A stretch of 34,362 bases of DNA from Propionivibrio sp. (lineage in GTDB: Bacteria > Pseudomonadota > Gammaproteobacteria > Burkholderiales > Rhodocyclaceae). The stretch is from contig NZ_JAEUOI010000196.1 in NCBI RefSeq assembly GCF_016790145.1, positions 1-34,362 of the forward strand, read 5' to 3'. The notes under the pieces were generated by a model. It was not told the origin of the DNA and did no database searches. It worked only from the letters and a program-made list of their open reading frames with translations. Shown here piece after piece: positions 575-30,962 of the stretch (its first letter is position 1; the number at the start of each line of letters is the position of its first letter). Made by a program: the position numbers and the translations under genes.

Positions 575-595
575 AAAATGGCAGGCGTGATCGTG

Positions 596-1204
596 ATGCA
601 ATCTGTTAATAAAAAAGTGATTTTCAGGATATACGGGCGCGGGAGGGGTTGGGCATTCTCGGCGAATGATTTCGTCGAAGATTTCAGCCGCAACCAGATC
701 GATTATGCACTGTCGGAGTTGTGCCGTGAGGGGAAGATCCGCCGCGTTTGCCGGGGTATTTACGACTACCCGAAATTCAGCGAGTTGTTGCAGCAGGATC
801 TAAGCCCGGATTTCGACCAGGTGGCGCAAGCATTCGCGCGCAAGTTCAACTGGCGTATCCAGCCTTCGGGCGATGCGGCGCTGAATCTGCTGGGGCTTTC
901 CACGCAGGTGCCAGGCCGGCTGGTGTATCTCTCCGACGGGCCGAACCGCCAGTACGACATCGGCAATTACACATTGGAGTTCAAGAAGTCTGCGCTGAAG
1001 GATGTTGGCTTTAAATACCGCGAGAGTGGGCTGGTCGTGCAGGCAGTGAAGGCGTTGGGCCAGGAGCGGGTGGACGATGCAGTGATCGCCACGCTGCGCA
1101 AACAACTGGATGAAGCGGTGTGCAAGCGGGTTCTCAAAGACACGGTGACGGCGACCGGCTGGGTGTATGAAGCGATCAAACGAGTTTGCGGGGAGCGCGG
1201 CTGA
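596..1204 (+). CDS. AbiEi-type antitoxin (DUF6088 family)
   Basis: A 202-residue winged-helix protein of the DUF6088/AbiEi antitoxin group, the antitoxin half of AbiE-type (type IV) systems. Seen: the N-terminal VIFRIYGRGRGWAFSANDF motif typical of the family, a winged helix over about residues 1-65 (IDYALSELCREGKIRRVCRGIYDYP), then the C-terminal domain. I prefer the ATG at 596 because homologues begin MQSV..; an in-frame ATG at 578 would add six residues but has AGGA only 3 nt away. The stop overlaps the toxin start (TGATG), indicating coupled translation. It probably represses its own promoter through the inverted repeat just upstream. Confidence 0.85.
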   Translation: MQSVNKKVIFRIYGRGRGWAFSANDFVEDFSRNQIDYALSELCREGKIRRVCRGIYDYPKFSELLQQDLSPDFDQVAQAFARKFNWRIQPSGDAALNLLGLSTQVPGRLVYLSDGPNRQYDIGNYTLEFKKSALKDVGFKYRESGLVVQAVKALGQERVDDAVIATLRKQLDEAVCKRVLKDTVTATGWVYEAIKRVCGERG

Positions 1205-2187
1205 TGGAGTCGGTCGCGCACCTGTCATCCGCTGAACGTCGCGAACTGTTTGGCGAAACTGCAGTGCGCAAGGGAATGACGCCCGCCGTGGTGGAGAAGG
1301 ATTTCTGGGTGTGCTGGACGCTGGGCAGATTGTTTGCGCATCCCGAGCTGTCGCGCTTGCTGATGTTCAAGGGCGGCACCAGTTTGTCCAAGGTGTTCCA
1401 TCTGACCGAGCGGTTTTCCGAGGACATCGATCTGATTCTGGATTGGCGCGTGGTGATTGGCGAGGATGATCCGCTGGCAGAACGGTCCGTCGCGAAACAG
1501 GAAGCGCTGAACAAGACGGTTGATGCCAGGGCGGTAAATTTCATCGGGTGTGAGTTGCTGGCCATGATTTCACGGGCGGTTGATCCGGTCTGCCGCTGTG
1601 AGCTTGCTGCCGATGATCTGCATGCCTTGAATGTGATGTATCCGGCAGCCTTTTCTGATACGTATCTGCGACCGGAGGTACGCCTTGAGATCGGGCCGCT
1701 GGCCGCGTGGTTGCCCTACGACAATTATCGAATCCAGCCTTATGCCGCCGAGGAATTTCCTCAGCTATTCAAGCAGCCAGGTTGTGCGGTGCAGGCCATA
1801 CGCGCAGAGCGCACCTTTTGGGAGAAGGCGACGATACTGCACCATGAAGCCCATCGCCCGGAAAACAGCCCGCAGCCGCTACGCTATTCGCGGCACTATT
1901 ATGACCTGGCCATGATGGCGAATTCAGCGGTGAAGGATGCTGCACTGGCAGACCTTGTATTGCTGAAGGATGTGGTGGCGTTCAAGCTACGTTTCTATCG
2001 ACGTCCCTGGGCGCAATACGAACAGGCCACTCCGGGAACGTTCAGGTTGCTGCCTTCGGGGCATGTATTGACGGCAGTCGAGAAGGATTATGTGCAGATG
2101 CGCAACATGATGTTCGGCCGCTATCCTGGCTTCGACGAGATCATGGAGACGTTGCGGTCGCTGGAGCGGGAGATTAATGATCTATAA
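1204..2187 (+). CDS. AbiEii/AbiGii-type nucleotidyltransferase toxin
   Basis: A 327-residue nucleotidyltransferase of the AbiEii/AbiGii toxin family (PF08843). Seen: FKGGTSLSK at about residues 55-63 and FSEDIDLILD at 71-80, the substrate-loop and metal-binding Asp motifs of the DNA polymerase beta-like fold; EKDFWVCWTL near residue 31 and AERTFWEKATILHHEAHR further on are also family hallmarks. Relatives such as MenT toxins add nucleotides to tRNA acceptor ends, and AbiE modules give abortive infection to some phages. The start at 1204 overlaps the antitoxin stop; an in-frame codon at 1186 would only add a tail inside the antitoxin gene. The pair looks intact and active. Confidence 0.9.
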   Translation: MESVAHLSSAERRELFGETAVRKGMTPAVVEKDFWVCWTLGRLFAHPELSRLLMFKGGTSLSKVFHLTERFSEDIDLILDWRVVIGEDDPLAERSVAKQEALNKTVDARAVNFIGCELLAMISRAVDPVCRCELAADDLHALNVMYPAAFSDTYLRPEVRLEIGPLAAWLPYDNYRIQPYAAEEFPQLFKQPGCAVQAIRAERTFWEKATILHHEAHRPENSPQPLRYSRHYYDLAMMANSAVKDAALADLVLLKDVVAFKLRFYRRPWAQYEQATPGTFRLLPSGHVLTAVEKDYVQMRNMMFGRYPGFDEIMETLRSLEREINDL

Positions 2188-5400: not shown

Positions 5401-7670
5401 ATGGCCAGCAGGCTTTGCAGATACTCCGGCGCGATGCCCTTCTTCGCCAGTTTTTTCCGCGCTTCATCGAGCGAGGCGATACGCAGCGACGAGGGGAAAA
5501 TCTGCACCCGGTTTTCCTCGCGCGTGAGCAGCGAAGCTTCTTCCAGCCACGACACGGCGGTGCGCACGCGTGTGTCGTCGGTGGCCGAATCGCGCTCGAA
5601 AGCGCCGTCTTCGTCTTCGGCGAGGATCTCGCCGGCGGTGGCGATCAGGTCGCCGTCCTTGCCACCCTCCTTGCCGCCGCCCTTGCGCTTTTTCCGCTCA
5701 AGATTACGCAGCGAATGCAGGATGGCCTGGATTTCCTTGCGCGAGAGCCGCGAGCGCGCCGACATGCCGAACTGACGTTCGACATCCTCGACGGTGTACA
5801 GCAGGACGCAGCGTGCCGACAGACTATCGCGACCGGCGCGGCCGGCTTCCTGCAGGTAGTTTTCCAGCGAGCCGGGAATATCGGCGTGGATGACCAGTCG
5901 CACGTCCGGCTTGTCGATTCCCATGCCGAACGCATTGGTCGCAACGATGACGCGCAGACCGCCTTCGATGAAGGTTTTCTGGGTGCTCTTCTTGGTTTCG
6001 GGCGGCAGCCTGGCGTGATAGTGGCCGACCGCCCAGCCCTTCTGTTGCAGAAAGCCTGAGACTTCCTCGGTCTGCCTGCGCGTCGCGCAATAGACGATGG
6101 CCCCGCCGTGCAGCTCCGGCGGCAGATCGGCCTGCAGAATCTGATGGATGTGCGAGAACTTCTCGTTCGGGCTGGTCGGAACGACACAGAAATCAAGATT
6201 GGTGCGACTCGCACCGCCGTTGAAGCAGTGCAGTTCAATGCCGACCTTGTCCTTGAAATGGGTCAGGATGTCGGCCACCACATCGGGCCTGGCGGTCGCC
6301 GTCAGGCAGAGGACGGGCGGAATGGTTTTGTCGGGCTGAGCGCCGGCCTTCTCGCGAATAAACCGGCTGACATAGCGATAATCCGGGCGGAAATCCTGCC
6401 CCCATTTGGATAGGCAGTGCGCTTCGTCGAGCACCCAGGCGCCGATTTCGCGCTGCGCTAGCACCTTGCGCAACGTGCGGTTGCGCAGTTGCTCGGGCGA
6501 AACGATGAGAATGCCGATATCGCCGAGGCGCACCCGGTCGAGCACGTCGGCGCGCTCGGGCATCGAGAGCAGCCCGTTGAGCGCCGCACAGCTTTTGATG
6601 TTCTTCGCTTCCAGCCCGGCCACCTGATCGGACATCAGGGCCACCAGCGGCGAGATGACGACAGTCAGCGCACCGGTCTTGTCGAAACGCGAGAGGGCGG
6701 GGATCTGATAGCACAGCGATTTGCCGGTTCCGGTCGGCAGAATGCCCAGCAGATGCTCGCCGCGCAGTGCCGCTTCGACGATGCTTTGCTGAAGGGGGCG
6801 ACCATCGTCATCGGCCGGCTCGGGGCGAAACTCGGGGAAGCCGAACCAGTGCGCGAGTTCCTTTTGCGCATCGTGCCGTTCGCGGCACCAGGCGCACGCC
6901 GGGTCGGCGCAGGCGGTGTCGCGCAAACGCCTGATCAGCACGCCGGCCTGCGGAAACTGATGGCGCACCCACGGCGGCATCACCGAATTGCCGCCGGCCA
7001 CCGACAACCAGGCCAGTGCGTAAGCCAAAGCCCAGCCCTGCCCGGCGGCATCGGCCAGAATGTCGCCCATGTGCGTCTGGCAGGCCTGGCCGGCGAGCTG
7101 TGCGCGAATCGCGGCGAGCGCTTCGCCGTCGCCCGGCCGCGCCTTGTGGCGCAAGGACATGAAGAAGCGGTCAAGCCCTGCCCCGCTGTCATTGACGGTC
7201 GTCAGCCAGTGCCAGGCGAGAACCAGATTCGGCGCGGTCTTGCCCAGCGCCGCGTGCTGGTTGCGGAAGACTTCAAGCGTCAGTTGCGCGTCGAGCAGCG
7301 GGTCGTTCAAGCGCCCGCGTTTGAGTTGCCCATCCTGATAATGCTTGACCAGATGGTGGTAGGGATTGCGCGGAAAGGCCAGCGGATTGAGCCACAGCGT
7401 ATCGACCACCGGCAGTTTCAACAGCCGCAGATCGGGTTTGGCGGCGGCCAGATGCGGCAGGTCGAAAGCGATCAGGTTATGGCCGAGCAGGAAGCGGGCA
7501 CCATCGGCAAGCGCGTCAAGTTGCTCCAGCGCGGCAGGCAGATTGCCTTGTCTGAATTGCAGCGAGGCCTCCGGCTGGTCCCCACGAACGGCGGCAAAGC
7601 GGTGAATCCGCGTATCGCGCAACCCGACTTCAAGGTCAATGGAGAGGCAGCGGGGAGCAAAATGACTCAT
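2481..7670 (-). CDS. Exonuclease-RecQ-UvrD fusion helicase
   Basis: A 1729-residue three-part DNA-processing protein. Residues about 8-140 form a DnaQ/RNase H-like 3'-5' exonuclease: D12 and E14 in SIDLE, GHNLIAFD ending at D70, and D127 in NDPLLDA; the usual motif III His is Asn122. A RecQ helicase follows: GTGKS near 313, DEAH near 415, SAT-type motif LTATARP, and QEAGRAGRD motif VI, then a winged-helix region and a lysine/glycine linker (KKRKGGGKEGG). The C-terminal half is a UvrD/PcrA-type superfamily 1 helicase: GPGSGKT near 1116, DEYQD near 1242, GDDDQNIYDFNG, TENYRST, AHKAKGLEF near 1530 and YVAMTRAR near 1565. A 150-residue tail is unassigned. RecQ normally unwinds forks and D-loops; UvrD-type enzymes strip proteins and unwind 3'-5'. 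No clear ribosome-binding site; ATG at 7670 lies 23 bases after the HEPN remnant and may be co-transcribed with it. Fusions of this type occur in other proteobacteria and may serve repair or defence; the role is not established here. Confidence 0.92.
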   Translation of the reverse strand: MSHFAPRCLSIDLEVGLRDTRIHRFAAVRGDQPEASLQFRQGNLPAALEQLDALADGARFLLGHNLIAFDLPHLAAAKPDLRLLKLPVVDTLWLNPLAFPRNPYHHLVKHYQDGQLKRGRLNDPLLDAQLTLEVFRNQHAALGKTAPNLVLAWHWLTTVNDSGAGLDRFFMSLRHKARPGDGEALAAIRAQLAGQACQTHMGDILADAAGQGWALAYALAWLSVAGGNSVMPPWVRHQFPQAGVLIRRLRDTACADPACAWCRERHDAQKELAHWFGFPEFRPEPADDDGRPLQQSIVEAALRGEHLLGILPTGTGKSLCYQIPALSRFDKTGALTVVISPLVALMSDQVAGLEAKNIKSCAALNGLLSMPERADVLDRVRLGDIGILIVSPEQLRNRTLRKVLAQREIGAWVLDEAHCLSKWGQDFRPDYRYVSRFIREKAGAQPDKTIPPVLCLTATARPDVVADILTHFKDKVGIELHCFNGGASRTNLDFCVVPTSPNEKFSHIHQILQADLPPELHGGAIVYCATRRQTEEVSGFLQQKGWAVGHYHARLPPETKKSTQKTFIEGGLRVIVATNAFGMGIDKPDVRLVIHADIPGSLENYLQEAGRAGRDSLSARCVLLYTVEDVERQFGMSARSRLSRKEIQAILHSLRNLERKKRKGGGKEGGKDGDLIATAGEILAEDEDGAFERDSATDDTRVRTAVSWLEEASLLTREENRVQIFPSSLRIASLDEARKKLAKKGIAPEYLQSLLAIVGALIGAPADEGISTDELMLVSGLSSEKVRAAFYDLEALGLASNDTALTAYVHVAVERSSRKRFEQAAALESALIGLLREQHPDLGRGESSVLHLRHANQHLKDAGHADALPERLRQLLSSLAADGRDEEGGQGSLKLRRVDAEAVAIELQREWSSLETTARRRRAAAGGLLDHLLACLPPDARGNDQLAETTLGKLLAALESDLLLKAEKTITPRLLDRALLWLHEQEIIRLNKGLAVFRPAMTIRLEPDWKKKFTPPDFAPLKLHYDEQVVQIHVMAEYVQRGLTTMAEALHLTMDYFSLQRDEFMRRWLPDRDKELARQTTPQSWHTIVEALNNRAQREIVADDRENANVLVLAGPGSGKTRVLVHRIAYLIRARRENPNGILALAYNRHAAVQIRQRLAALIGDDARGVSVLTLHALAMRLVGASLATQNTGFVRGADGELFKQIIEQAVSLLKGDELPPEDADLLRERLLAGFRWTLVDEYQDIAPEQYALISALAGRTRPEEEGRINLFAVGDDDQNIYDFNGASVEFIRRFEADYAARPAFLTENYRSTAHIVEAANALIAPAAQRMKQAHPIHIDAARKTQAAGGEWAGLDPVGRGRVQILPAGDNDQTQALAVIGEFERMADLAAHWDWARCAVIARHWRSLDPVRSYCELKGIPVQQADEDSSGFWSLRETQSLLGWLRARASGLIDAATIAHWLELQPAGGLGAHWWDYLREAIAEYALDVGDAELPHDHFLDWLAEWGREARRRQTGLLLLTAHKAKGLEFDHVAVLDGEWWKSRGQSQRRRGTNEDVDATRRLYYVAMTRARKTLALARFDRGQGLLDGLPESPAILRRPKTVLPTPPPELARRYRRLGWREIDLDFAAQYPPGHAIHRALAALAVGSPIELRQKSASTWRLCDTQGVDIGALSQHFEPENNMDCIAARVTAIHVRRPCDVADQYKSRINTRCESWEMLVPELVFAPVR

Positions 7671-7693
7671 GGGCGAGGTTGGAGGGTGATGCG

Positions 7694-7783
7694 CTAAGCC
7701 GAGGCCAGCAATCTCTGCACACCGCCGGACGTCGCTTCAAACGCCTGCAAGCGATGAATGGCCAGCAAGTTTTCCAAGGTCAT
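7694..7783 (-). pseudogene. HEPN-domain partner, N-terminal remnant
   Basis: A 29-codon frame starting inside the 3' end of the nucleotidyltransferase gene (47-base overlap) reads MTLENLLAIHRLQAF.. and ends RLLASA. This matches the beginning of the HEPN-domain proteins that normally follow MNT-type nucleotidyltransferases (typical start M-x-LENLxxIGxLKxH, then ARRNLxDA), but stops where the first HEPN helix should continue. HEPN ribonuclease toxins are about 135-145 residues, and the catalytic RxxxxH is absent, so this is the stub of a deleted gene. The break lies just before the fusion helicase gene. Confidence 0.7.
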
Positions 7784-8345
7784 GTTCGGTTCCGATGACG
7801 AATAGTTTCGGCTTGGCGAGAATCCTGCCAATGAAGGCGTCCTTGTCGGAGATACGTCGGTTGAACTCGGCGGCGGTGTAGAGCGCCGGGTTGATTTCAC
7901 GTTGTAACTGCTCCTGCACCGGATGCAGCGCCTTGACGACGTCGCCAAAGGTGCAGTCGGCAATCAGGAGTAAATCGACATCGCTGCAGGCGTTCTCTTC
8001 GCCGCGTGCGATCGAACCGAAGATCAGCGCCAGTTCGGGTGCAGTACCAAGCGTGTGCAGGGCGTCGGCGATCACGCCAACCATGCCGCCGGTCTTGCGA
8101 AACAGGCCAGCCAGTTCAGCAAATACCGGGCACTCGCGGTTGGCGCGGTAGTGCACCTGATTGCCCTGCTTTTCTCGCAGCAGCAGGCCGGACCCGGCGA
8201 GTCGGGATAGCTCCTTGTGCAATGTGCCGGGCGTGGTGCCGGTCAATCGCGCCAGTTCGCGTACGTGATAGCTACTGTCCGGATGCAGCAGTAGCTGATT
8301 CAGTGCGCGCTGGCGGTAAGTACCGAAGAGAAGGTCAAGTAACAC
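7737..8345 (-). CDS. HTH-nucleotidyltransferase (MNT-type antitoxin)
   Basis: A 202-residue protein with an N-terminal ArsR/winged-helix DNA-binding domain (residues about 1-70: YHVRELARLTGTTPGTLHKELSRLAGSGLL) and a minimal nucleotidyltransferase domain (GSIARGEENACSDVDLLLI, G110-S111 and Asp122/Asp124). In MNT-HEPN modules the MNT antitoxin AMPylates and silences the HEPN RNase; the added winged helix suggests autoregulation. Starts with GTG at 8345. Its HEPN partner survives only as a 29-codon stub downstream, so the antitoxin looks widowed. Catalytic residues appear intact. Confidence 0.85.
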   Translation of the reverse strand: MLLDLLFGTYRQRALNQLLLHPDSSYHVRELARLTGTTPGTLHKELSRLAGSGLLLREKQGNQVHYRANRECPVFAELAGLFRKTGGMVGVIADALHTLGTAPELALIFGSIARGEENACSDVDLLLIADCTFGDVVKALHPVQEQLQREINPALYTAAEFNRRISDKDAFIGRILAKPKLFVIGTEHDLGKLAGHSSLAGV

Positions 8346-8707: not shown

Positions 8708-9148
8708 TCAGGCGGCAGGGAGTTGGCCGAGATAATCGCTTGCAGCATTCGCCAGTTGCCGGTCGAAGGTGGCGAGCGGTGCCTTGAGCGCGCCGGCGAG
8801 CCACAGATAGGCGGCGTCGTAGGCGGTCAGGCGATAACGGCTGGCAATGGTGGCCACTTCTTCTGGAACGGGCGCATGTCTTTCCAGTTCCATCATGGAG
8901 AACTCGGCGAGGGCCAGTACGGCATTTTCCAGCGTCAGCTCATTTCGGCGCAATCGGGTGACCGCCACATTGGTCAGTTCGTAATCGATCAGCCCCGGCG
9001 CGTGCAGAATGAAGCCGCGCAATCGGGCTTCTGCGGCATCGCGTTCCATTTCGCCGAAAACGCAGGCCGCCAGCAGGCTGGCATCGACGACGAGCGGTGC
9101 CCGCGTCGGGTAGATGGTCGGCGGTTCGGCAAGGAATACTTCGGACAT
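8708..9148 (-). CDS. VapC-type PIN-domain toxin
   Basis: A 146-residue PIN-domain ribonuclease. The four acidic metal-binding positions are visible: D22 in VVDAS, E57 in IDYELTN, D111 in TAYDAAYLWLA and D129 in TFDRQL. Such toxins cut tRNA or rRNA when freed from the antitoxin. It starts 3 bases after the stop of the ribbon-helix-helix antitoxin gene, the usual vapBC arrangement. The N-terminus (about 17 residues before the first strand) is slightly longer than typical; no better start was found. Appears intact. Confidence 0.88.
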   Translation of the reverse strand: MSEVFLAEPPTIYPTRAPLVVDASLLAACVFGEMERDAAEARLRGFILHAPGLIDYELTNVAVTRLRRNELTLENAVLALAEFSMMELERHAPVPEEVATIASRYRLTAYDAAYLWLAGALKAPLATFDRQLANAASDYLGQLPAA

Positions 9149-9151
9149 CGA

Positions 9152-9475
9152 TCAGGCGGCACCTTTCGGCTCGCGGGTCTCCGCCCAGGCCTCGCCATAA
9201 CGGCCATCGCGCATCTGGCGGATCAGGCTGGCCGAGGAGACGGTGCTGCGCGAGGGAACGGGAAAGAGTGTGCGCCAACCTTGCAGGGAGTCCTCCACAC
9301 GACGCGTGCCCCGGTTTTCACTCGCCCCGGTGATGGCGGGCAAGTCTTCGCTTGCGGCCGCCTCAAGGATGGCCATCAACTCACCCTGCAATGAACGATG
9401 GTTGCGCTCGGCGCGAAGGCGCAAGCGCTGCGCAAGCGCCTCAGGAATGTTCTTGACTGAAAAACTGACACCCAT
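9152..9475 (-). CDS. VapB/FitA-like ribbon-helix-helix antitoxin
   Basis: A 107-residue antitoxin with a ribbon-helix-helix domain at residues 1-40 (FSVKNIPEALAQRLRLRAER, then SLQGELMAILEAA), as in FitA-type VapB proteins, followed by a C-terminal arm expected to cover the PIN active site. It pairs with the toxin gene 3 bases downstream. Start chosen at ATG 9475 (MGVSFSVKN); an ATG at 9487 would add four residues, and neither has a clear ribosome-binding site. The C-terminal part is longer than in many VapB proteins. Confidence 0.8.
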   Translation of the reverse strand: MGVSFSVKNIPEALAQRLRLRAERNHRSLQGELMAILEAAASEDLPAITGASENRGTRRVEDSLQGWRTLFPVPSRSTVSSASLIRQMRDGRYGEAWAETREPKGAA

Positions 9476-9484
9476 TGCTGGCAC

Positions 9485-9524
9485 CATTATGGAACTATTT
9501 TGACCAAGGGTTTCATTATGGAAC
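9485..9524 (-). promoter_or_regulatory. Direct repeats upstream of the vapB-type gene
   Basis: The 11-mer CATTATGGAAC occurs at 9485-9495 and again at 9514-9524, 29 bases apart; on the coding (minus) strand it reads GTTCCATAATG and includes a CATAAT -10-like hexamer. RHH antitoxins bind short direct or inverted repeats in their own promoter, so these are candidate operator half-sites. The proximal copy overlaps the possible upstream start codon. Confidence 0.35.
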
Positions 9525-9640
9525 CGTTCGGAAGTGTGAGTCAATCCCGGCGATGGGTGAGAGGGAGGCCGGACTTGCGTTCCTCCAGGCGGCTGACAGA
9601 CCGTCAACGTGATACGGCGAAGCACCCGGTTACCAAGGGG

Positions 9641-9672
9641 TACCAGAAAAAGCACAGAGAGCTTTTTCTTGG
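9641..9672 (-). terminator. Possible terminator of the ahcY-metF-tfoX operon
   Basis: AAAAAGC (9647-9653) and GCTTTTT (9661-9667) form a stem around a 7-base loop, extended imperfectly by CCAG/CTTGG. On the minus strand it lies about 80 bases after the stop of the TfoX-like gene and is followed by a short run of pyrimidines. The stem is A/T-rich and so only moderately convincing. Confidence 0.35.
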
Positions 9673-10976: not shown

Positions 10977-11324
10977 TTAGTTCTTGCCGGAAACCAGCAG
11001 GCTCGACAGTGCCCACGATATGACGCTGTAGAGCATCGAGCCGAAGACTCCCGGCCAGAAGCCGCTGACCACAAAGCCTTCAATCATCGAACCCGCCAGC
11101 CAGAACATCAGGCCGTTGATGACAAAGATGAAGAGCCCGAGCGTCAGCAGCGTGACCGGCAGCGTCAGCAGCAGCAACACGGGGCGCAATAGGGTATTGA
11201 CCAGTCCGAGCAGCAGTGCCGCGAGCAGCGCCGAACCAAACGAGGCTACCTGAATGGATGGCAGCAGGTAAGTCACGGCAAGCAGCGCAACGGCGTTGAG
11301 TATCCAGAGCAGGATCAGGCGCAT
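10977..11324 (-). CDS. Four-TM phage-holin-family (PF04020) membrane protein
   Basis: A 115-residue hydrophobic protein with four predicted membrane helices (about residues 3-22, 27-50, 55-78 and 86-110), matching the 'phage holin family / mycobacterial 4-TMS' group (YvlD-like). Its function is unknown; despite the name it is a chromosomal gene. ATG 11324 has a GGAG about 7 bases upstream; longer versions lack hydrophobic character. It sits between ahcY and metF, a neighbourhood kept in many betaproteobacteria, although here repeats occupy the 320 bases separating it from ahcY. Confidence 0.85.
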   Translation of the reverse strand: MRLILLWILNAVALLAVTYLLPSIQVASFGSALLAALLLGLVNTLLRPVLLLLTLPVTLLTLGLFIFVINGLMFWLAGSMIEGFVVSGFWPGVFGSMLYSVISWALSSLLVSGKN

Positions 11325-11644
11325 GGTGTTCTCCGAGGCTAAAGGTCGTGGTTCAGTTAAGCCGAGCAACTGTTTTGACCTAGAAACAGCAGTTGAGCGC
11401 GACCGCCGTAACACAAAGTTTGGCGAGGGTTTGGCCCTCACCCCAACCCGCGGGGAGAGGGGGTGTGCACCCTTCTCCCAGCGGGAGAAGGGCCGGGGAT
11501 GAGGGCCTACGATATTGCCAATACGCTTAACTGCGTTTTTTAGGTTGAAGCGTCATTCCGGTGAAAACGGGAATTCAGAGATACGCCACTGGATTCCGGG
11601 TCAAGCCCGGAATGACGGGTTTCAAAACAGTTTGCTGCGAACAC
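11325..11644. repeat. Gap between ahcY and the 4-TM gene with two long palindromic repeats
   Basis: No gene was seen here. Bases 11433-11507 form a GC-rich palindromic element with ends GGCCCTCA/TGAGGGCC and an inner stem CCCTTCTCCC/GGGAGAAGGG. Bases 11551-11617 form a second element with perfect 11-base ends, CGTCATTCCGG and CCGGAATGACG. Both are of types found dispersed in intergenic DNA of many proteobacteria. They lie inside the ahcY-metF transcription unit and could attenuate or process its mRNA. Confidence 0.75.
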
Positions 11645-15085: not shown

Positions 15086-16054
15086 ATGATAGCTTCTATA
15101 CCGATGGCGCAACAAGCGAACTACGCCCTTCCTGCCGGTTACCAACTCGATGAATATCGGATCGAGCATCAGCTATCCTTGGGCGGGTTTTCCATAGTCT
15201 ATCTGGCAACCGACAACAAGGGCGAGACGGTGGCCATCAAGGAGTACCTGCCGAATAGTCTGGCCTTGCGTGCCGAAGGCGAAATCAAGCCACTGATCAG
15301 CGAAGAGCACATTCCCGCATTCCGTTACGGCATGAAGTGTTTTTTTGAAGAAGGCCGTGCACTGGCCAGGCTTTCGCACCCGAATGTAATTCGTGTGCTG
15401 AATTTCTTCCGCGCCAATGATACGGTTTACATGGTCATGGAGTACGAGCACGGACGCACGCTGCAGGAGTTCATCCAGAAGAACAGGGCGGTCGTCACCG
15501 AGAATTTCATCCGCAATGTCTTTACCAAGCTGCTCAATGGCCTGCGTGAAGTGCATTCGCACAAGCTGCTGCATCTTGATCTCAAACCGTCAAATATCTA
15601 CATGCGTAATGACTATACGCCGGTACTGATTGATTTTGGCGCGGCACGCCAGACGCTGGCCTGCGACACACCGATGCTCAAGCCCATGTACACACCGGGT
15701 TTTGCCTCACCGGAGCACTACCACCAGCGAGAATTTCTTGGCCCCTGGAGCGACATCTACAGCGTTGGTGCTTCAATGTATGCCAGCCTTGCCGCATCGG
15801 CACCACAAGCCGCTGATAGCCGTATGGAAAAGGACAAGCTGATTCCTGCCATGGTGCGCTGGGAAGGACAATACTCCGATCAATTGCTTGAAACGATTGA
15901 CTGGTGTTTATGCCTGAATCATCTTTATCGGCCACAAAGCGTCTTTGCACTGCAAAAGGCGCTCACCGAGAAGGTCAACAAACCGAAATTAATCAAGAAG
16001 AACTGGCTTGGCCATATGGTTGGCAAGTTCAAGGGTAAGACTGGAACATCATGA
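15086..16054 (+). CDS. Hanks-type serine/threonine protein kinase
   Basis: A 322-residue soluble protein kinase. Seen: glycine loop LSLGGFSIVY (30-39), which lacks the canonical first glycine; catalytic lysine K52 in VAIKEYLP; alpha-C glutamate around 88-89 (FFEEGRAL); HLDLKPSN catalytic loop (D165, N170); DFGAAR (D183); APE-like FASPEHY. There is no transmembrane segment or PASTA domain, so it acts in the cytoplasm. It overlaps the PP2C phosphatase gene by ATGA, so kinase and phosphatase are co-translated and probably act on the same substrates. This pair upstream of rph is found in other betaproteobacteria. An internal ATG at 15104 is an alternative start. Confidence 0.92.
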   Translation: MIASIPMAQQANYALPAGYQLDEYRIEHQLSLGGFSIVYLATDNKGETVAIKEYLPNSLALRAEGEIKPLISEEHIPAFRYGMKCFFEEGRALARLSHPNVIRVLNFFRANDTVYMVMEYEHGRTLQEFIQKNRAVVTENFIRNVFTKLLNGLREVHSHKLLHLDLKPSNIYMRNDYTPVLIDFGAARQTLACDTPMLKPMYTPGFASPEHYHQREFLGPWSDIYSVGASMYASLAASAPQAADSRMEKDKLIPAMVRWEGQYSDQLLETIDWCLCLNHLYRPQSVFALQKALTEKVNKPKLIKKNWLGHMVGKFKGKTGTS

Positions 16055-16971
16055 AATTCACCATTTATCAGGAAAGCCGACCCGGCAAGCGCGCCAACAA
16101 TGAAGACAGGCTGGCACACAGTTATTCGCGTGAAGCCTTGTTGATGGTCGTTGCCGACGGGATGGGTGGCCATTACTATGGCGAAATTGCCGCGCAGATC
16201 GCCGTGCAGGTACTCGTCGAATCGTTTCAGCGGGAAGCAACACCGGCAATTCGTGACCCCTTCCTGTTCTTGCAGAAATCGATGACCAATGCGCATCGCG
16301 CGATTATCGATTTTACCGATGACCACAACCTGAAAGATTCGCCGCGCACGACCTGCGTAGCCTGCATCGTCCAGGACAGCATTGCTTACTGGGCGCATGC
16401 CGGCGACTCCCGTCTTTATCTGATGCGCGACGGTAAAGTGCTGACGCACACGCGCGACCACTCGCGCGTACAGTTGCTCAAGGATCAGGGTGTGATCAAC
16501 GCCGCGCAGGCCGCCGTGCACCCGGACCGTAACAAGGTCTATAGTTGCCTTGGTGGTCGACAGACGCCGGAGATCGAGTTCTCGCGCAAAACACCGCTTG
16601 AAGCGGGCGATGTGCTGGCCCTGTGTACGGATGGCTTGTGGGGTGTGTTGTCTGGCGAGATGATGGCTGTCGCCCTGAAGAGCGAAAATCTGATGCAGGC
16701 GGTGCCGATGCTGCTTGGACAGGCCGACATCCGCGGCGGTCCGAACGCCGACAACCTCTCCATTCTTGTCGTGCGCTGGGAGGACAGCTACATCGAAGAA
16801 GGGGCCACTCCAACCAGCGTTATTTCAACGCAAACGATGTCGCGCGATACGATCACCACCCGACTCGACGAATTCGGACGCAACCCGAATTACAAGACCG
16901 AGTTGAGCGATGAAGAAATCGAGCGCGCCATCGAAGAAATCCGCTCAACCATTCAGAAGTATTCAAAATAG
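16051..16971 (+). CDS. PP2C-type serine/threonine phosphatase
   Basis: A 306-residue metal-dependent phosphatase of the PP2C/Stp family. Seen: E18-D19 in ANNEDR, VADGMGG (D36), AHAGDSR (about 116-121), TDGLW (D193) and [13 protein letters not shown] (D233), the motifs supplying the Mn/Mg-binding acids. Residues 245-306 form a hydrophilic Thr-rich and Glu-rich extension ([15 protein letters not shown]..) that could be a phosphorylation target of the neighbouring kinase. It overlaps the kinase stop by 4 bases and is followed after 8 bases by rph. Confidence 0.93.
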
Positions 16972-19687: not shown

Positions 19688-20485
19688 TCAATTCTTACAC
19701 CGCTCATTGAAGTGGGTTTGCCAATGGGTTTGGTCCGAACTGAGCGGCAATCCACCTTCGCAAAATTCGACAACAGCGCTAGCGAGAGCAACAGCAATCC
19801 TCTTTTGATAACTTGAGCTTCGAAGGAGGAGTTCCTCATGCCGGTTGACGATCAAACCGGCTTCAAAGAGTACCGCCGGCATCCTGGTAGACTTGAGCAC
19901 CACCAAATCGTCAAAACGGTAAATACCGAGTTGCTCGTCCAGAAGCTCTCTGTTTTCGCCTGGGATCTTCTCGGCGTGATGTAAAGTCGGGATAAAGCAG
20001 CCGTTGCGCAATTGATTGCCCAGCAGGTGCGCTAATCGTACGCTGCCAGTGGCGTCGCCGTTTTTTTCAGAAACGAATAGCGAGTAGCCTTTGATGTCGT
20101 CGGTGTAAAGGCGGCGCTTTCCCAGATATGTCCAGGTGGACAGATAGTGCGTTTGCGCCGAGTCGTGGTGTATCGAGAGGAACAATTGTGCTTTGCGCTC
20201 GTTGGCCAACAGCGCACGATCAATCAACGAGATCGATGCCTGGTTCCTGTTCGTGAGAAAGGCCTTGGCAAAGCCAGCATGCACAAGTTCATCCAGCAGG
20301 TATCGCGCCAGGTTTTCGTTGAGCTGCACCTCGGGTACCCCGCGAGCGCTGATCGCGCCGGGCCTGGCACGAGTGTGTCCAGGGTCGATGGCGATCACGA
20401 AGTCGCCTCGCTCGCAGGCCTGCGCCACGCTGCCGGCAACGAGCGACAGGCTTAGTGCCAGGCAATAAAATGCGGTTCGCAGCAT
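19688..20485 (-). CDS. Secreted N-acetylmuramoyl-L-alanine amidase (Amidase_3)
   Basis: A 265-residue zinc amidase of the AmiA/B/C type (PF01520), which cuts the bond between MurNAc and the stem peptide of peptidoglycan. A signal peptide is evident (LRTAFYCLALSLSLVAGSVAQA, cleavage near residue 23). Predicted zinc ligands are H37 in AIDPGHT, E52 in PEVQLNE and H106 in SIHHDS; the catalytic Glu is E208 in LFEAG. It has no AMIN or LysM targeting domain and shows a long insert (about 110-200) containing YLGKRRLYTDDIKGYSLFV. Its ATG lies one base after the stop of the TIR-domain gene, so the two form a tight operon. The pairing suggests a function outside ordinary cell separation; this is inference. 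Confidence 0.87.
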   Translation of the reverse strand: MLRTAFYCLALSLSLVAGSVAQACERGDFVIAIDPGHTRARPGAISARGVPEVQLNENLARYLLDELVHAGFAKAFLTNRNQASISLIDRALLANERKAQLFLSIHHDSAQTHYLSTWTYLGKRRLYTDDIKGYSLFVSEKNGDATGSVRLAHLLGNQLRNGCFIPTLHHAEKIPGENRELLDEQLGIYRFDDLVVLKSTRMPAVLFEAGLIVNRHEELLLRSSSYQKRIAVALASAVVEFCEGGLPLSSDQTHWQTHFNERCKN

Positions 20486-20486
20486 G

Positions 20487-21650
20487 TTATTTCTCGGTGC
20501 TCAAGACCTTCTCTCGTTGCGCCACGATGGTCAGATCGCCATTCGTCAGGCGTAGTTGCAACTCTTCCCGAGCCACGCCAGACTTGCTGTCGGCACGGGC
20601 AGGGTTGGTGACCCGGTATTGCATGGTGTAGGACACCTGCACCGTGCCATCGCCTTGTGGCTGTTGCACATCTATTGTGCTGACCAGGCGGTTGTCCACC
20701 TCGGTCCAACGACGGTAGAAGTTTTGTCTATCCTTGAGTATGAAATCCTTGTCTGCCGACTTCTGATTGTAGTAGTCAACCCGGTCGGCATAGAAAGGCA
20801 GCAACTGGGTTGCGTTCGCGCTGTTCTGTGCAGCGAGGTAGCGGCCGACAAAATCATTCACCTGCGAATCGGTGATGAGCGCCGCCATCACCTGCTTGTG
20901 AGTCTCCAAACCGGTTGCTGAGCCGGTCGCCATCACCTGCTTGTTAGTCTCCATAAGGGTTGTAAGCGAATCTACAGCAGCCTGCGAATGTGTGCGAATA
21001 GAAGCCTCAGCCTCTTCCTGCCGACTCTTCATGTTGGCGAACAGTGCATATCCGATAGCCACGACGCAGACCACGATGACAGCAGGGATGATCTTCATCG
21101 GAAAGTGCCGCTGTGCGCTGATCCCTCTTTCAATTGGAGTATTTGCGTCCACCGGTTTGCCAGACTCCGGTTTGTCGTGCTTAACACTAATCGCCGCTTT
21201 CGGTGGACTGTCTAAGCTTGGTTGCACTGGTTGATCAGCCCTAGGCACTGCAAGCGGAGAGGACAGCGCGTTCAGCGTCGCTATGAGTTGCTGATAGGCG
21301 TCATCAAAATCGCCCGTGAAGTCGATGTACTGAAGCCGCTTCAAACGAAATGGGATGTTGCCCGATTGCAGAAGAATGGGAATGACCACCTTTTTTTCGT
21401 CGAGTGCATAAGACACCTCGTCCAACACGTTTTGAGATTGAGAGGATGCCGGGGAAAGTGCAACCAAAAGGCATCTACTCGCCTTCAGCGCCTTTTCAAC
21501 CTCTTCATCCCAACGCCCACCTTTAGGAATGTCGAGCTGGTCGACCCAAATGTGCCTTCCCTCCTTGCGCAGGGCTTTTGCGACCTTGAGCACGAAGTCC
21601 GCATCGCTACGGGAGTAACTGAAAAACACTTTATGAATTTCATCGGGCAT
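20487..21650 (-). CDS. TIR domain - transmembrane - NTF2-like protein
   Basis: A 387-residue protein in three parts. Residues 6-130 are a TIR domain: KVFFSYSRSDADFV, IWVDQLDIPKGGRWDEEV, RCLLVALSPASSQSQNVLDEVSYALDEKKVVIPILL; E78 in LDEVSYAL aligns with the catalytic Glu of TIR NADases. A proline-rich linker leads to one membrane helix at about 187-207 (IIPAVIVVCVVAIGYALFAN). Then comes a short helical region with a near-repeat (METNKQVMA / LETHKQVMA) and, at 264-387, a region resembling a SnoaL/NTF2-like fold. Predicted topology is TIR inside, C-terminal domain in the periplasm. ATG 21650 follows AGGGAAA; GTG 21674 would add eight residues. The secreted amidase gene begins one base after the stop. 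Function unknown; bacterial TIR proteins commonly act in phage defence by NAD+ breakdown or signalling. Confidence 0.85.
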   Translation of the reverse strand: MPDEIHKVFFSYSRSDADFVLKVAKALRKEGRHIWVDQLDIPKGGRWDEEVEKALKASRCLLVALSPASSQSQNVLDEVSYALDEKKVVIPILLQSGNIPFRLKRLQYIDFTGDFDDAYQQLIATLNALSSPLAVPRADQPVQPSLDSPPKAAISVKHDKPESGKPVDANTPIERGISAQRHFPMKIIPAVIVVCVVAIGYALFANMKSRQEEAEASIRTHSQAAVDSLTTLMETNKQVMATGSATGLETHKQVMAALITDSQVNDFVGRYLAAQNSANATQLLPFYADRVDYYNQKSADKDFILKDRQNFYRRWTEVDNRLVSTIDVQQPQGDGTVQVSYTMQYRVTNPARADSKSGVAREELQLRLTNGDLTIVAQREKVLSTEK

Positions 21651-27507: not shown

Positions 27508-29805
27508 CTAGCGAATCGAGCCGATGCGCCACCGCCGTCTTGTCGCGGTCGCCACGACCAGTAGCCCCATGCCAAGCATCGCATACGTCTGCGGTTCCGG
27601 AACAGCCGCCAAGGTGAAGCCGCTACCGTCCCACTCGCCGACGTAGCCAGCCGGGAGCCCGACGAGGTCGAACGTGACCAGTCCCAAGCCGTACACGCCC
27701 CCACTGGTCGTCACGTAGTCGGCGAACGAGAAGCGCCGACCGGGCTCGGGTAACAGGCCGCCGAGGAACGAAAAGCGCACCGTCGCCCCTTGCTTGAAGT
27801 TCAGGGTGCCGGTCACGTCGAGGTGGTCGCTGGCCGTGGGGGAGAGTTCCAGTTCGAGGACGCCGTCGATCACCATCGAGCCCAACACGGTTAGGGTGCC
27901 AGGCGAGGTGCCAGGATTGACAGTGGCATTGGCGCCTACCGTGAGCAGGATGGTCGAGACGCGGTCGCGGCCCTTGAGGATGCCCTCTTCGATCTCGACG
28001 GTCTGGGCTTGCAGCAATCCGTTGACGATGGTGACCGCGTTGGCGCCGGTCTGACGATAGCGCACGAGTTGCAGCATCGCACCGCCTTCGTCGACTTGTA
28101 CCGTGCCGGTGTTGGTAACGACGCCACCGGAGAAGCTACCCGCTGCTCCCCCTATGACCCCGTCGCCGGTAAAGACGAGTCGGCCATGGTTGGCAACGGA
28201 TCCTTGATTCTCGAAGTACCCACCGGAGACCTGCACCAGGCCGTGGTTCGTGAATTCGGCACTGCTGGAGTTGGCGATGTGGCCGCGCAGCCGAAGGTGG
28301 ACGTCGTCGTTCACATTTCCCGAATTACCGTTCCAGAGATGGCCGTTGTTGAGCAGCTCACCTTGCACCTCCAGGATCGAGCGGTTGTCGAGGACGCCGT
28401 CGTTCTGGAAACTGCCCTCCACCCTGATCGTGCCCCGACCGGGGTCTGCTAGCGAAACGGCGTCGTTGATGCCGTTCCTCAGCGTGCCGCTGTTGATGAA
28501 CTCCGAGTTGCCGAGGCCTGTCGCTTCGAGCACATCCAGGACACCCTGGTTGTCGAGCGTGCCGCTGTTGATGAAACGGCCGCGACTTTCCATGCGCTCA
28601 TAGTTGAGGAAGCTTCCGCCTAAGTGTTCCACTTTGCCCGCGTTGACGAGCGTGCCGCCCGTGGCATGCGCCGTCCCATTGGTAAAGTTGCCTTCGTTGC
28701 TGAAGGTCGCGTCCAGGCCAACCGTGAAGGTGCCGGTGTTGTCAAACTTCGCACCAACAGTGTTATTCACCTTGCCGTTCGCGGCCAGGTCAAGCGTACC
28801 CCGATTGAAAAAGCCTGGATCGCGGGAAAACGGCAGGTTTGGGTCTATGGGCGAGGGGTCGCCGGCGAAAGAGGCCATGTTGTCAATCGTGGCGGCACCG
28901 GTGATCAAACCACCGGCTTCGTTCACCAGACGACCGGAGTTGGCGATCTGGCTGGCAGGGAGCATGTTGAGGCTGCCCCGGTTGGTAAGCTCGGTAAGGT
29001 GCGACGCTTCTTCGATGAGAATGCTGCCGCCGTTGTCGAGAATGCCACGATTGTTGAGTTTGTCGCGAATCCGGATGGTGCCGCCGTTGAACACTACCCG
29101 GTTGTTGTAGGCGTCGTCGTCTTTCTCGATTTCGATCGTGCCGTCGTTGACGAACGGTGCGATCTGGTAGCGGACGATGGCGCCGGTAACCTTGACCTCG
29201 AACTGGTCGATGGTGATATTGGTGGGCGCTGCGGCCGTCCACACTCGGATTTGCGCGCCAAGCCCGACCGGTATCATTGACGGTGCGGGATCGGTGACGA
29301 AGGGACCGCGTTCGGCCTTCTTGACCAGATGGAGGAAAGAATTGGCCGAGCCGGTCTTCGTCTCGAAATCGAAGTTGGCGTCAAAGTTCTGGGTGCCAGC
29401 GGAATCGGAGCGGGTGACGAATTGCCATGTCCCGCCGGAACTTGGCTGGGCGGGGAAACTGACCTGGTTGCCCTTTTGGCCAGCGGCCAGCCCGGAATTC
29501 GACGGACCGTAGAAATAGATTTCGGTGTCGAAGAATCCGCCCTGGCTCAGCGCACTACCGGGAGCGAGGATGGAGATGGTATCGAGGGTGACTTCGCCGA
29601 GCAGTTCGGGCTGATACGCGGTCGGCGTTACGAAGTACGTGAAGAGCGGGCCGATCCCGTCAAAGGTCTGGGTGGCACTGCCGCCATTACGCTTGAACTC
29701 CCAAGTGAATTCCTTGGCTTCGGAGGCGCATGCCAAGCAAAGGGCGAAGGCTGCGATGGCCAGTCGGCAGTGCGTGCGGCGGCGAGATAGTATCGAAGGA
29801 AGCAT
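27508..29805 (-). CDS. PEP-CTERM exported repeat protein (adhesin-like)
   Basis: A 765-residue surface-type protein. A signal peptide is seen (MLPSILSRRRTHCRLAIAAF, then ALCLACASEA). The centre (about 280-640) is built of short beta-solenoid-like repeats of the form N-x-G-x-L-x-N-x-G (for example RGILDNGG, NRGSLNM, NSGTLDNQG, NSGTLRNG, NDGVLDNRS). A passenger-like region follows (VNPGTSPGTLTVLGSM, LDVTGTLNFKQG). The end is VPEPQTYAMLGMGLLVVATATRRRWR, a PEP-CTERM sorting signal recognised by exosortase and typical of bacteria making exopolysaccharide. No exosortase gene is in this window. ATG 29805 is supported by the promoter 38 bases upstream, although no ribosome-binding site is evident. 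Confidence 0.85.
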   Translation of the reverse strand: MLPSILSRRRTHCRLAIAAFALCLACASEAKEFTWEFKRNGGSATQTFDGIGPLFTYFVTPTAYQPELLGEVTLDTISILAPGSALSQGGFFDTEIYFYGPSNSGLAAGQKGNQVSFPAQPSSGGTWQFVTRSDSAGTQNFDANFDFETKTGSANSFLHLVKKAERGPFVTDPAPSMIPVGLGAQIRVWTAAAPTNITIDQFEVKVTGAIVRYQIAPFVNDGTIEIEKDDDAYNNRVVFNGGTIRIRDKLNNRGILDNGGSILIEEASHLTELTNRGSLNMLPASQIANSGRLVNEAGGLITGAATIDNMASFAGDPSPIDPNLPFSRDPGFFNRGTLDLAANGKVNNTVGAKFDNTGTFTVGLDATFSNEGNFTNGTAHATGGTLVNAGKVEHLGGSFLNYERMESRGRFINSGTLDNQGVLDVLEATGLGNSEFINSGTLRNGINDAVSLADPGRGTIRVEGSFQNDGVLDNRSILEVQGELLNNGHLWNGNSGNVNDDVHLRLRGHIANSSSAEFTNHGLVQVSGGYFENQGSVANHGRLVFTGDGVIGGAAGSFSGGVVTNTGTVQVDEGGAMLQLVRYRQTGANAVTIVNGLLQAQTVEIEEGILKGRDRVSTILLTVGANATVNPGTSPGTLTVLGSMVIDGVLELELSPTASDHLDVTGTLNFKQGATVRFSFLGGLLPEPGRRFSFADYVTTSGGVYGLGLVTFDLVGLPAGYVGEWDGSGFTLAAVPEPQTYAMLGMGLLVVATATRRRWRIGSIR

Positions 29806-29842
29806 GGCTGGAAAGGATAGGAATTTCAACTGCACTTTTTTA

Positions 29843-29871
29843 AGTATCCTTAGCCGCTTCACCAATGTCAA
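29843..29871 (-). promoter_or_regulatory. Sigma70-type promoter of the PEP-CTERM repeat protein
   Basis: On the minus strand TTGACA (29866-29871) and GATACT (29843-29848) are 17 bases apart. This predicts a leader of about 30 nt before the ATG at 29805 and supports that start. The spacer resembles that of the cytochrome b561 operon promoter. Confidence 0.6.
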
Positions 29872-29959
29872 TGATGCCGAATTTGCCATCAATCCCATGA
29901 GGAAATACCTATTCCGCCTCACCCTTGCGCGTAAGAGAGCGCGAAAAGCGGGTCCGAAT

Positions 29960-29998
29960 AGCGGGTCAGAGTCATTTGACATTTTCTGGCTCACTAAG
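29960..29998 (+). repeat. 39-base dispersed repeat, copy 1
   Basis: This sequence (AGCGGGTCAG..TTTTCTGG..TCACTAAG) matches 34167-34205 at roughly 30 of 39 positions in the same orientation. GGGTCAGAGTCA-type motifs are often seen beside REP-associated transposases, but none is encoded here. It lies in the gene-free stretch between the two divergent PEP-CTERM genes; nothing else is evident between 29999 and 30300. Confidence 0.55.
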
Positions 29999-30317
29999 GT
30001 GATTCGTTATTGCCCTGGAATAAGAAATGTCTCTGGCCCCATTGGTGCCCTGACACAGGGGGCCAATGGCAGAATTGGTACATTCGGACTATTGAGCGTT
30101 CGCGTCTAACCGTGGTAGGGTTGTTCTCGGTCTCGTGGTCTTTTTATGCATTGAGCCTCCCTAACTTAGCGAAAAAACATCTGAAAATTGAATTGACACC
30201 GTTGCGTCAAATGCTGATCGAGTTTTTCCAATTGCCATTCGGCCTATTGAAACTACTTCATTGTTGAACAGGTTTGGTGGGCATCAAAAGCGTAGTATCT
30301 AACCATTGGAGAGTTCC

Positions 30318-30962
30318 ATGAAATCAATTCGAACGATCGCTGCAGCCTACGCTCTTGCCGTTGCCGGTGCAGTTCTCGCCGCACCTGCGCCAGTGCTGTC
30401 CAATTTTTCCTTGGATTCGGAGGGCTGGATAACGGTGGACCTGTTCGGGTTGACCGGTCCGGGCACCGTAACTTGGGATACGGCCGGTTTCATCGCCTCC
30501 TACGACACCCACAAGTGGAACGCGTTTTCTGCGCCGGCCAAGTTTCTCGGCGACAAAGGGGGTTTCCTGGGCGGCACACTGAGTCTGAAGCTTTCCGACA
30601 GCATGAGCGACGCTCAGCCAAACTGGCCTGTCGTGGTCATCACCGATGGCGCGATCAAATTGGCGTCGTGGCCTTTTGCCAGTCCGGGCAGCGACTTCAC
30701 GGACTTTTCCTTTGCCCTGGATGCTGGAAGTTGGGTGAAAGTGGACTCGACCCATCCGTCTGCGTCCGAGTTTGCGAAAGTCCTTGGTGGACTGACAGGG
30801 GTCTTCGTCAATGCTGATTTCAAGACCAGTGGCAACGACTACGCGAGGCTCGACGATGTCGTGCTGACCGCTCCCGTTCCAGAGCCTGAGACCTATGCGC
30901 TCTTCCTTGCGGGTCTCGGTGTACTGGGTGTTTCCTTGGGTCGCCGTCGGCGCGGCGCCTGA
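30318..30962 (+). CDS. PEP-CTERM sorting-domain protein
   Basis: A 214-residue exported protein. Signal peptide MKSIRTIAAAYALAVAGAVL followed by AAPAP; the body (WITVDLFGLTGPGTVTWDTAG, DKGGFLGGTLSLKLSD, SDFTDFSFALDAGSWVKVD) resembles the laminin-G-like/choice-of-anchor type seen in small PEP-CTERM proteins. The C-terminus is VPEPETYALFLAGLGVLGVSLGRRRRG, with PEP motif, hydrophobic stretch and arginine tail. ATG 30318 follows GGAGAG; an upstream TTG at 30306 is in frame. Transcribed divergently from the large PEP-CTERM protein. The function is unknown. Confidence 0.87.
   Translation: MKSIRTIAAAYALAVAGAVLAAPAPVLSNFSLDSEGWITVDLFGLTGPGTVTWDTAGFIASYDTHKWNAFSAPAKFLGDKGGFLGGTLSLKLSDSMSDAQPNWPVVVITDGAIKLASWPFASPGSDFTDFSFALDAGSWVKVDSTHPSASEFAKVLGGLTGVFVNADFKTSGNDYARLDDVVLTAPVPEPETYALFLAGLGVLGVSLGRRRRGA

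Follow-up and report, generated by a model that had tools for sequence, protein, structure and literature searches.

Control of peptidoglycan amidases by membrane-attached partners has been described for CwlD, in which the inhibitory helix is missing and which the lipoprotein GerS activates allosterically, and for LytH, which depends on the transmembrane protein ActH; the helix-less amidases AmiC2 and CwlV act alone (PMC8496864, represented here, like the other papers cited, by excerpts). SpbK is a TIR NADase that is activated by clustering (PMC12847820), and Zorya defence requires peptidoglycan binding by a periplasmic domain (PMC11890865). Some bacterial gasdermins have an endolysin-like amidase encoded nearby, and early lysis aborting the infection was raised there as a possibility (PMC9612521); GTPase-centred conflict systems have been noted to include NTF2 ligand-binding domains beyond a transmembrane (TM) segment (PMC7159879). 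The gene pair analysed here lies in a DNA stretch of 34,362 nucleotides from Propionivibrio sp. (contig NZ_JAEUOI010000196.1; the whole stretch is called the window) and encodes a TIR-TM-NTF2-like protein, P0001, and a secreted Amidase_3 protein, P0002. Because of the CwlD/LytH, SpbK, NTF2 conflict-system, Zorya and gasdermin precedents, we favour, tentatively and at slightly under an even chance, an outside-in, wall-coupled receptor in which ectodomain and amidase would act together outside and the TIR would signal by clustering inside.

P0001 and P0002 are encoded by two open reading frames (ORFs) on the minus strand that lie 1 base apart. The features of the pair are listed below, with reference where indicated to L003, a related locus in genome G374, which is placed in the same genus as the window, and to the predicted local distance difference test (pLDDT) of the structure model.

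20487 to 21650, minus strand: TIR-TM-NTF2-like protein P0001, 387 residues (ORF call, Pfam, alignment with L003)
21276 to 21638, minus strand: TIR domain, residues 5-125 (Pfam TIR_2), with the Glu78 codon at 21417-21419
21096 to 21275, minus strand: predicted cytoplasmic linker, residues 126-185, poorly conserved relative to L003 and of low pLDDT
21036 to 21092, minus strand: predicted transmembrane helix, residues 187-205 (Kyte-Doolittle 2.74)
20880 to 21035, minus strand: stalk, residues 206-257, poorly conserved relative to L003
20490 to 20879, minus strand: predicted NTF2-like ectodomain, residues 258-387 (AlphaFold2 and Foldseek)
20483 to 20489, minus strand: junction TAA-C-ATG, predicted translational coupling, read from the sequence
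19688 to 20485, minus strand: secreted Amidase_3 P0002, 265 residues (Pfam, structure model, Foldseek)
20417 to 20485, minus strand: predicted amidase signal peptide, about residues 1-23, with cleavage between AQA and C by eye and a hydrophobic segment at 6-24
19691 to 20416, minus strand: mature amidase with H37, E52, H106 and E208, invariant in 24 aligned sequences

The start of P0001 was placed at the ATG at 21650; the ORF list gives an upstream GTG at 21674 instead. The ATG is favoured because the MPD start is common to L003 and because of the AAAGGGAAACC stretch upstream. An earlier note, made from the sequence of the window, had stated that the amidase gene begins one base past the stop of the TIR gene, and the junction TAA-C-ATG confirms this.

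The adjacency of the two genes is more than chance. An amidase and an NTF2-like domain adjoin in three genomes and in three surroundings, two of them with a TIR, and the stop-to-start spacing is between -4 and +4 bases in all three pairs (window, G374 and G445). The earlier note had held that the two genes belong together, which agrees with stops and starts at most 4 bases apart each time, and had asked for homologues with both genes adjacent; these were found in G374 and, in a form without the TIR, in G445, so the adjacency is not confined to this genome. In a scan of genome contigs for the amidase, 61 loci were obtained. L003 was the one locus among them with a P0001-like TIR protein upstream, and it alone had the NTF2-like domain; at least 5 of the 61 loci hold less than 0.9 kb upstream, and the pair count is therefore a lower bound. 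The TIR proteins of the window and L003 are 55% identical and the amidases 71-72%. G445 belongs to another family of the same class and carries the NTF2-like domain on a protein of 235 residues that lacks a TIR and has its membrane segment at 17-35. The stop of this protein overlaps the ATG that starts the next gene, which encodes an amidase of the type of P0002 and 52% identical to it. The pairing outside thus does not need the TIR, since in G445 the NTF2 domain and the amidase occur without it, and the control of the amidase by the TIR that the earlier note had put forward is not supported.

Searches in wider genome samples gave a pair family that is rare. An amidase match at E<=1e-20 was present in 11 of 40 relatives; G000 had only P0002, and G374 had the copy of the pair plus one more. 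With the C-terminal domain of P0001 as query, 3 of 369 genomes of the class matched, namely G000, G445 and G449, the last with a remnant (L107, 4912-5449) at the end of a contig, next to a transposase-like frame. Further sampling with this domain gave matches in 10 of 398 genomes of the phylum, 2 of 345 of the family, 1 of 379 of the order and 1 of 2 of the family of G445; these samples overlap, G000 is counted each time in the phylum, family and order figures, and not all of them included G374. Counting the window, all 3 intact close relatives carry the amidase next to the NTF2-like domain; of the 12 distant relatives, covered over flanks of about 2.4-5 kb per side (0.7 kb on one side of G061), none does. 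Nine of the 12 are genomes from other classes of the phylum; the others are G061, a plasmid of Microvirga and a viral contig. The domain stands in the nine genomes on proteins whose start resembles a secretion signal (by eye), and a membrane segment precedes it in G061 and in the viral contig; these settings count in favour of an ectodomain that works outside. Because the amidase adjoins in the close relatives and in none of the distant ones, the membrane-anchored NTF2-like ectodomain and the amidase seem to form a conserved unit, with the TIR either added to the anchor or lost from it.

Residues 8-123 of P0001 match Pfam TIR_2 with an E value of 1.1e-29. Glu78 aligns with the Glu of the CRISPR-associated Cat1 (9mud) and of SPARTA TIR-APAZ (8fex, 8j7s), and it is kept in the TIR protein of L003, in line with the putative catalytic Glu of the earlier note. 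The Glu at this position is the catalytic one in TIR NADases, and P0001 may accordingly cleave NAD+, as judged from the alignment. The structure of P0001 was modelled from three sequences with a mean pLDDT of 62 (49-85 in the TIR blocks, 50-87 in the C-terminal domain and mostly 29-43 in linker and stalk). The best solved fold match in Foldseek was SPARTA TIR-APAZ 8qlp (1.5e-6), and the list also holds Toll-related TIRs and SARM1. PADLOC matches to Aga_TIR, SAVED-TIR, ThsB and other models, given as best-scoring stretches, fall on residues 3-128, that is, the TIR part. P0001 passes the cut-off of Pfam ThsB_TIR (24.1 versus 21.2 bits) and stays below that of NCBIfam ThcB4 (18.3 versus 220 bits). 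No domain besides the TIR was recognised by Pfam in the inner part.

One strong membrane segment was found by hydropathy, at residues 187-205, as the earlier note had described. The C-terminal domain gave a Pfam SnoaL_2 match below threshold (E 0.062; 14.3 bits against a cut-off of 27), and a three-row profile of it matched no PDB sequence at E<=1. In the model, residues 258-387 form helices followed by a sheet of long strands, with pLDDT values mostly of 69-87 and a dip to 50-60 at about 281-300. Foldseek returned NTF2-fold matches to 3gzr (5.1e-5), 3h51 (1.0e-4), and 7sjy and yeast NTF2 1gy7 (both 1.4e-4). The Foldseek list carries no aligned ranges, and the NTF2-fold matches were assigned to 258-387 because this is the only other folded part of P0001. 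By its model the domain is of the NTF2-type alpha+beta fold, and the NTF2/SnoaL-like reading of the earlier note thus finds support in the fold, with SnoaL_2 itself sub-threshold. Identity of the domain is 63% to L003 and 29% to G445. The domain is probably periplasmic, because an N-terminal TIR without signal peptide is followed by a single helix; in L003 the K/R counts before and after the helix (3/0) give a clear positive-inside charge bias. The stalk contains a near-exact direct repeat of about 27 bases (about 20885-20955, minus strand; METNKQVMA ... LETHKQVMA, by eye), at which slippage may change the stalk length.

P0002 was assigned to Amidase_3 (Pfam, E 5.1e-31), and no second Pfam domain such as AMIN was found. 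Residues H37, E52, H106 and E208 are invariant in 24 of 24 aligned sequences, its own included; from their roles in the family we take the first three to be the zinc ligands and E208 to be catalytic. A hydrophobic segment at residues 6-24 (Kyte-Doolittle 1.63) marks the signal peptide. The earlier description of a signal-peptide-bearing Amidase_3 with complete zinc ligands and no targeting domain therefore stands. The model of P0002 (pLDDT 91) is nearest in fold to mycobacterial Ami1/Rv3717, then to AmiB, AmiA, AmiC, CwlD-GerS (7rag) and LytH-ActH (7tj4). In the model, strand 134-138 leads to helix 145-161, and there is no other long helix before strand 204-211. Judged by eye from this secondary structure, the regulatory (autoinhibitory) helix of the AmiA/B/C type is absent from the model, as is a long insert like that which bears the helix in AmiB and AmiC. 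The protein is also far under the NCBIfam cut-offs for AmiA (68.8 of 400 bits), AmiB (66.5 of 532) and AmiC (50.1 of 700). Control of the AmiC type by a LytM activator was rejected on the missing helix and the missing AMIN-like second domain. Because the model lacks this helix, AmiC-style control does not carry over, and the AmiC comparison in the earlier note is weak, the nearest folds being Rv3717/Ami1.

To compare constraint along the pair, the window was set against L003, and nonsynonymous (dN) and synonymous (dS) divergence were estimated by Nei-Gojobori; the values come from this one pair, and dS is high. Identity was 76% in the TIR (dN 0.137, dS 0.947), 74% in the amidase (dN 0.167, dS 0.904) and 63% in the NTF2 domain (dN 0.223, dS 0.579). 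The linker reached 22% (dN 0.70, dS 0.98) and the stalk (208-257) 21% (dN 1.06, dS 0.96). By these values TIR, NTF2 domain and amidase are under constraint, and linker and stalk drift. Such drift disfavours a finely geared or rigid push across the membrane, and clustering therefore fits better.

The outside-in receptor would then work as follows. The two genes would form a translationally coupled envelope module. Outside the inner membrane, the NTF2-like ectodomain, anchored by one pass, would work with a small zinc N-acetylmuramoyl-L-alanine amidase, to which it may bind physically as a cognate tether or activator, and/or it may bind the wall fragments that the amidase makes. In the lineage of the window the anchor would also bear a cytoplasmic TIR with the Glu at the catalytic position intact. 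A change in the peptidoglycan, such as phage entry, lysis, wall damage or wall debris, would be read through ectodomain and amidase and cause the protein to cluster in the membrane. Clustered TIR domains would form active sites, and cleavage of NAD+ or an ADP-ribose signal would shut the cell down or alert it.

The same parts could be read in the opposite direction, as in the model of the earlier note: an inside-out lysis switch in which the TIR senses infection, oligomerises and turns on the amidase through the ectodomain, so that lysis comes before phage are made. TIR domains do act by self-association (PMC12847820), the amidase is complete and carries a signal peptide, and early lysis was proposed as a possibility for the endolysin-like amidases near gasdermins (PMC9612521). 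However, the pair exists without a TIR in G445, the 60-residue linker and the 50-residue stalk are hardly conserved, the TIR is the sole recognised inner domain, and a helix-less amidase may be active anyway, as CwlV and AmiC2 are (PMC8496864). We consider this switch unlikely.

Several observations weigh against the outside-in receptor. With P0001 as query, 56 of 395 genomes of the family had some match, at most 4 candidates being scored per genome; the match was full-length in only two, G000 and G374, so that the full TIR form is known from a single genus, and no TIR was found on any further NTF2-domain match from the wider genome searches. The K/R counts around the helix are balanced in the window protein (3/3) and in G445 (1/1). 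Many TIRs are scaffolds. At none of the three loci do the surroundings clearly amount to a defence island, and no clear defence gene stands beside the pair. In a tree of 49 amidases (drawing midpoint-rooted), the three paired amidases form a group of four with that of L004 (ultrafast bootstrap 96, SH-aLRT 92), a grouping that itself speaks for the receptor model. Against the model, the L004 amidase has no NTF2 or TIR partner, and 18 of 500 label shuffles clustered the pair label as well as the amidase tree did. Because L004 is unpaired within the group, the tree calls for either one gain and one loss or two gains. A separate group holds seven unpaired amidases from the genus of the window. Two genes downstream of the L004 amidase, a SnoaL-like protein was noticed by eye, with no sign of a membrane anchor.

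The unpaired L004 amidase and the very small number of examples would also suit two neighbouring genes without joint function, their coupling reflecting shared transcription only. Against this stand three genomes with three surroundings and the same tight stop-to-start spacing each time, which make mere neighbourhood quite improbable.

The genes flanking the pair differ at all three loci. In the window they are HemW (by eye) and a K+ channel/TrkA-N gene. At L003 they are a GH15 glucodextranase-type gene and a lipoprotein-like gene of 180 residues without Pfam hit, followed by a Ser/Thr kinase with a cNMP domain; in G445 a UbiA gene and a glutamine amidotransferase gene. None of the identified neighbours is a division gene, so the pairs do not always sit among division genes, the arrangement that the earlier note had named as adverse. 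The L003 kinase, two genes from the pair, matched PADLOC PD-T4-6 at 1.7e-71; we judge it a generic match because the window kinase at 15086-16054 also matches this model (8.3e-37). A protein at L106 matched PDC-S33 at 6.8e-17 over part of its length, and the seven other neighbours among six from L003 and three from L106 had no PADLOC match at 1e-10. In the window, AbiE and a DpdF-like/UvrD helicase lie 12-19 kb from the pair and a PIN/ribbon-helix-helix pair about 10 kb, with housekeeping genes between. Membership in Thoeris, CBASS or Argonaute systems was rejected, as no partner genes were recognised. An effector of the ThsA type is not adjacent, the neighbours being the amidase, the K+ channel/TrkA-N gene and HemW, and ZorA and ZorB are not among the window genes identified. 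The pair may act in defence, a point that the neighbourhood does not settle.

This neighbourhood would suit envelope housekeeping, in which the NTF2 protein would be a plain membrane tether or activator for an amidase that remodels the wall, and the TIR would serve clustering or localisation without catalysis and without a role in defence. The TIR-less pair of G445 stands beside housekeeping genes, clear defence neighbours are missing, and partnerless amidases are common: 60 of the 61 relatives, with the short upstream flanks noted above, have no TIR or NTF2 neighbour. A scaffold, however, needs no catalytic conservation, and the TIR is the best conserved part of the pair and keeps Glu78. A pure housekeeping role is held to be rather unlikely, although somewhat less so than the lysis switch.

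The pair has a G+C content of 54.1%, compared with 59.2% for the window, which places it in the lowest 2.5% of window stretches of the same size. Little weight is given to recent acquisition on this ground, as the pairs of G374 (62.0 versus 63.3% over 20 kb) and G445 (59.5 versus 60.1% over 10 kb) do not stand out. A clean empty site was not shown: among 20 hemW loci of relatives, with about 1.5 kb on the 3' side (less than 1.2 kb in two), none was followed by the next genes of the window. The K+ channel gene had no relative at E<=1e-40 in 28 other genomes searched. Plasmid spread of the pair was rejected, because the 35 plasmid records that match P0001 are all below 60% identity and none covers 80%; the C-terminal domain matches one plasmid at 29.9%, and the amidase matches 127 plasmid records, all below 60%. 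A phage lysis cassette was rejected as well, no phage gene being found beside the pair in the window; Phage_holin_4_2, the single phage-named family, lies 8 kb away among metabolic genes. None of 50,697 phage records matched P0001 at E<=1e-5, and a pattern scan of viral contigs with this protein gave no relative. The amidase matched 13 phage records, all below 60% identity. The C-terminal domain alone found one relative among viral contigs, L120, without amidase or TIR.

In L120 (2483-7684 of viral contig IMGVR_UViG_3300032365_000044), the domain is on a membrane-anchored NTF2-like protein of 221 residues. Encoded in the same run are a kinase-like protein (sub-threshold Pkinase match, E 0.0071), a protein that combines a superinfection-immunity domain with a zinc ribbon, and isochorismatase-like and vWA-like proteins (both by eye); the ectodomain may here be part of another conflict-type operon. 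In another class of the phylum, the proteins at L110, L112, L117 and L118, whose start resembles a secretion signal, combine a ClpP-like N-terminal domain (by eye) with the NTF2-like domain; the ClpP-like domain of the L110/L144 copy had no Pfam hit. In another genus of the family of the window, L073 (1-2196, minus strand) and L076 (1444-3447, plus strand) encode TIR-TM proteins of about 320-340 residues, each overlapped by a next gene with a lipoprotein-like start (OmpA E 0.0033 in L073 and TPR E 0.0029 in L076, both below cut-off). This is a second TIR-membrane protein, with what may be a secreted partner.

Other features of the window were recorded as follows.

578 to 2187, plus strand: AbiEi/AbiEii pair (PADLOC 3.9e-63 and 3.6e-103)
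2481 to 8345, minus strand: 1729-residue protein, a DpdF-like DEAD/DEAH helicase joined to a UvrD/GajB-like helicase; an adjoining 202-residue nucleotidyltransferase-domain protein matches PDC-M05A (5.9e-76), and the two could be a two-gene defence candidate
8708 to 9655, minus strand: PIN-domain protein and FitA-like ribbon-helix-helix protein, a likely toxin-antitoxin pair
10977 to 11441, minus strand: Phage_holin_4_2-family membrane protein (4.6e-34), between the methylenetetrahydrofolate reductase and S-adenosylhomocysteine hydrolase genes, 8 kb from the pair
15086 to 16971, plus strand: overlapping Ser/Thr kinase and PP2C phosphatase genes, directly before an apparent RNase PH
27508 to 30962: two PEP-CTERM proteins, one of 828 residues and one with a Laminin_B domain

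Should the TIR signal from the wall, the pair would be a bacterial TIR receptor in the membrane, with its sensor outside and a wall hydrolase as co-factor, that is, the layout of animal Toll pathways in one two-gene unit. A more specific form would have the function of a Toll-like receptor: the periplasmic NTF2-like domain would read the products or the state of its own amidase and report a breach of the wall to a cytoplasmic TIR NADase, the receptor having arisen by addition of the TIR to an existing wall-amidase partner. We regard this form as speculative and rather unlikely. On a modest reading, the locus points to an NTF2-like protein anchored in the membrane as partner of a set of Gram-negative amidases that apparently lack the helix, and it shows a TIR attached to an envelope module that occurs TIR-less as well.

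No description of a TIR-NTF2/amidase pair was found among the best matches in the open full-text literature, which leaves subscription papers and most preprints outside; the earlier note likewise knew of no such system. The main text of a TIR-domain survey does not mention NTF2 (PMC7075850). As far as seen, all parts are of known kinds and the combination is new.

Among the known systems, P0002 fits a helix-less amidase encoded with a separate membrane-anchored extracytoplasmic protein, with the topology taken from hydropathy and co-encoding as our own criterion. By analogy, CwlD and LytH with their membrane partners offer closer precedents than AmiC control does. CwlD-GerS and LytH-ActH likewise combine an Amidase_3 with a membrane-attached partner, and CwlD is also helix-less; however, their partners are a lipoprotein and a transmembrane protein, not described in the excerpts as NTF2-like or TIR-bearing, and the partnership is shown there and predicted here (PMC8496864). 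With AmiA, AmiB and AmiC (controlled through EnvC, NlpD or ActS) P0002 shares the secreted Amidase_3 with its metal ligands kept, but it has no AMIN-like domain or regulatory helix in the model, falls under their NCBIfam cut-offs, and has no LytM gene in the two-gene unit. The TIR fold and the Glu at the catalytic position are common to P0001 and the TIR NADase defence proteins SpbK, SPARTA TIR-APAZ and Thoeris ThsB. P0001 differs in its predicted single membrane pass, its predicted outside domain and its putative amidase partner, and no Argonaute, ThsA or other defence partner was recognised adjacent to it. RsgI9 (S1C-NTF2, 7sjy; fold match 1.4e-4) is also a membrane signalling protein with an extracytoplasmic NTF2-like domain, but it is an anti-sigma factor whose S1C domain is credited with polysaccharide binding, and the excerpts mention no amidase partner (PMC12203970). 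The gasdermin operons resemble the locus in an amidase near a protein of the innate-immunity type (PMC9612521), but no gasdermin or protease gene was recognised at the pair. Finally, Zorya (ZorAB) and the pair would share a membrane protein that couples the state of the peptidoglycan to a cytoplasmic defence output (PMC11890865); ZorA and ZorB are absent from the genes identified around the pair, and the inside part is here a TIR.

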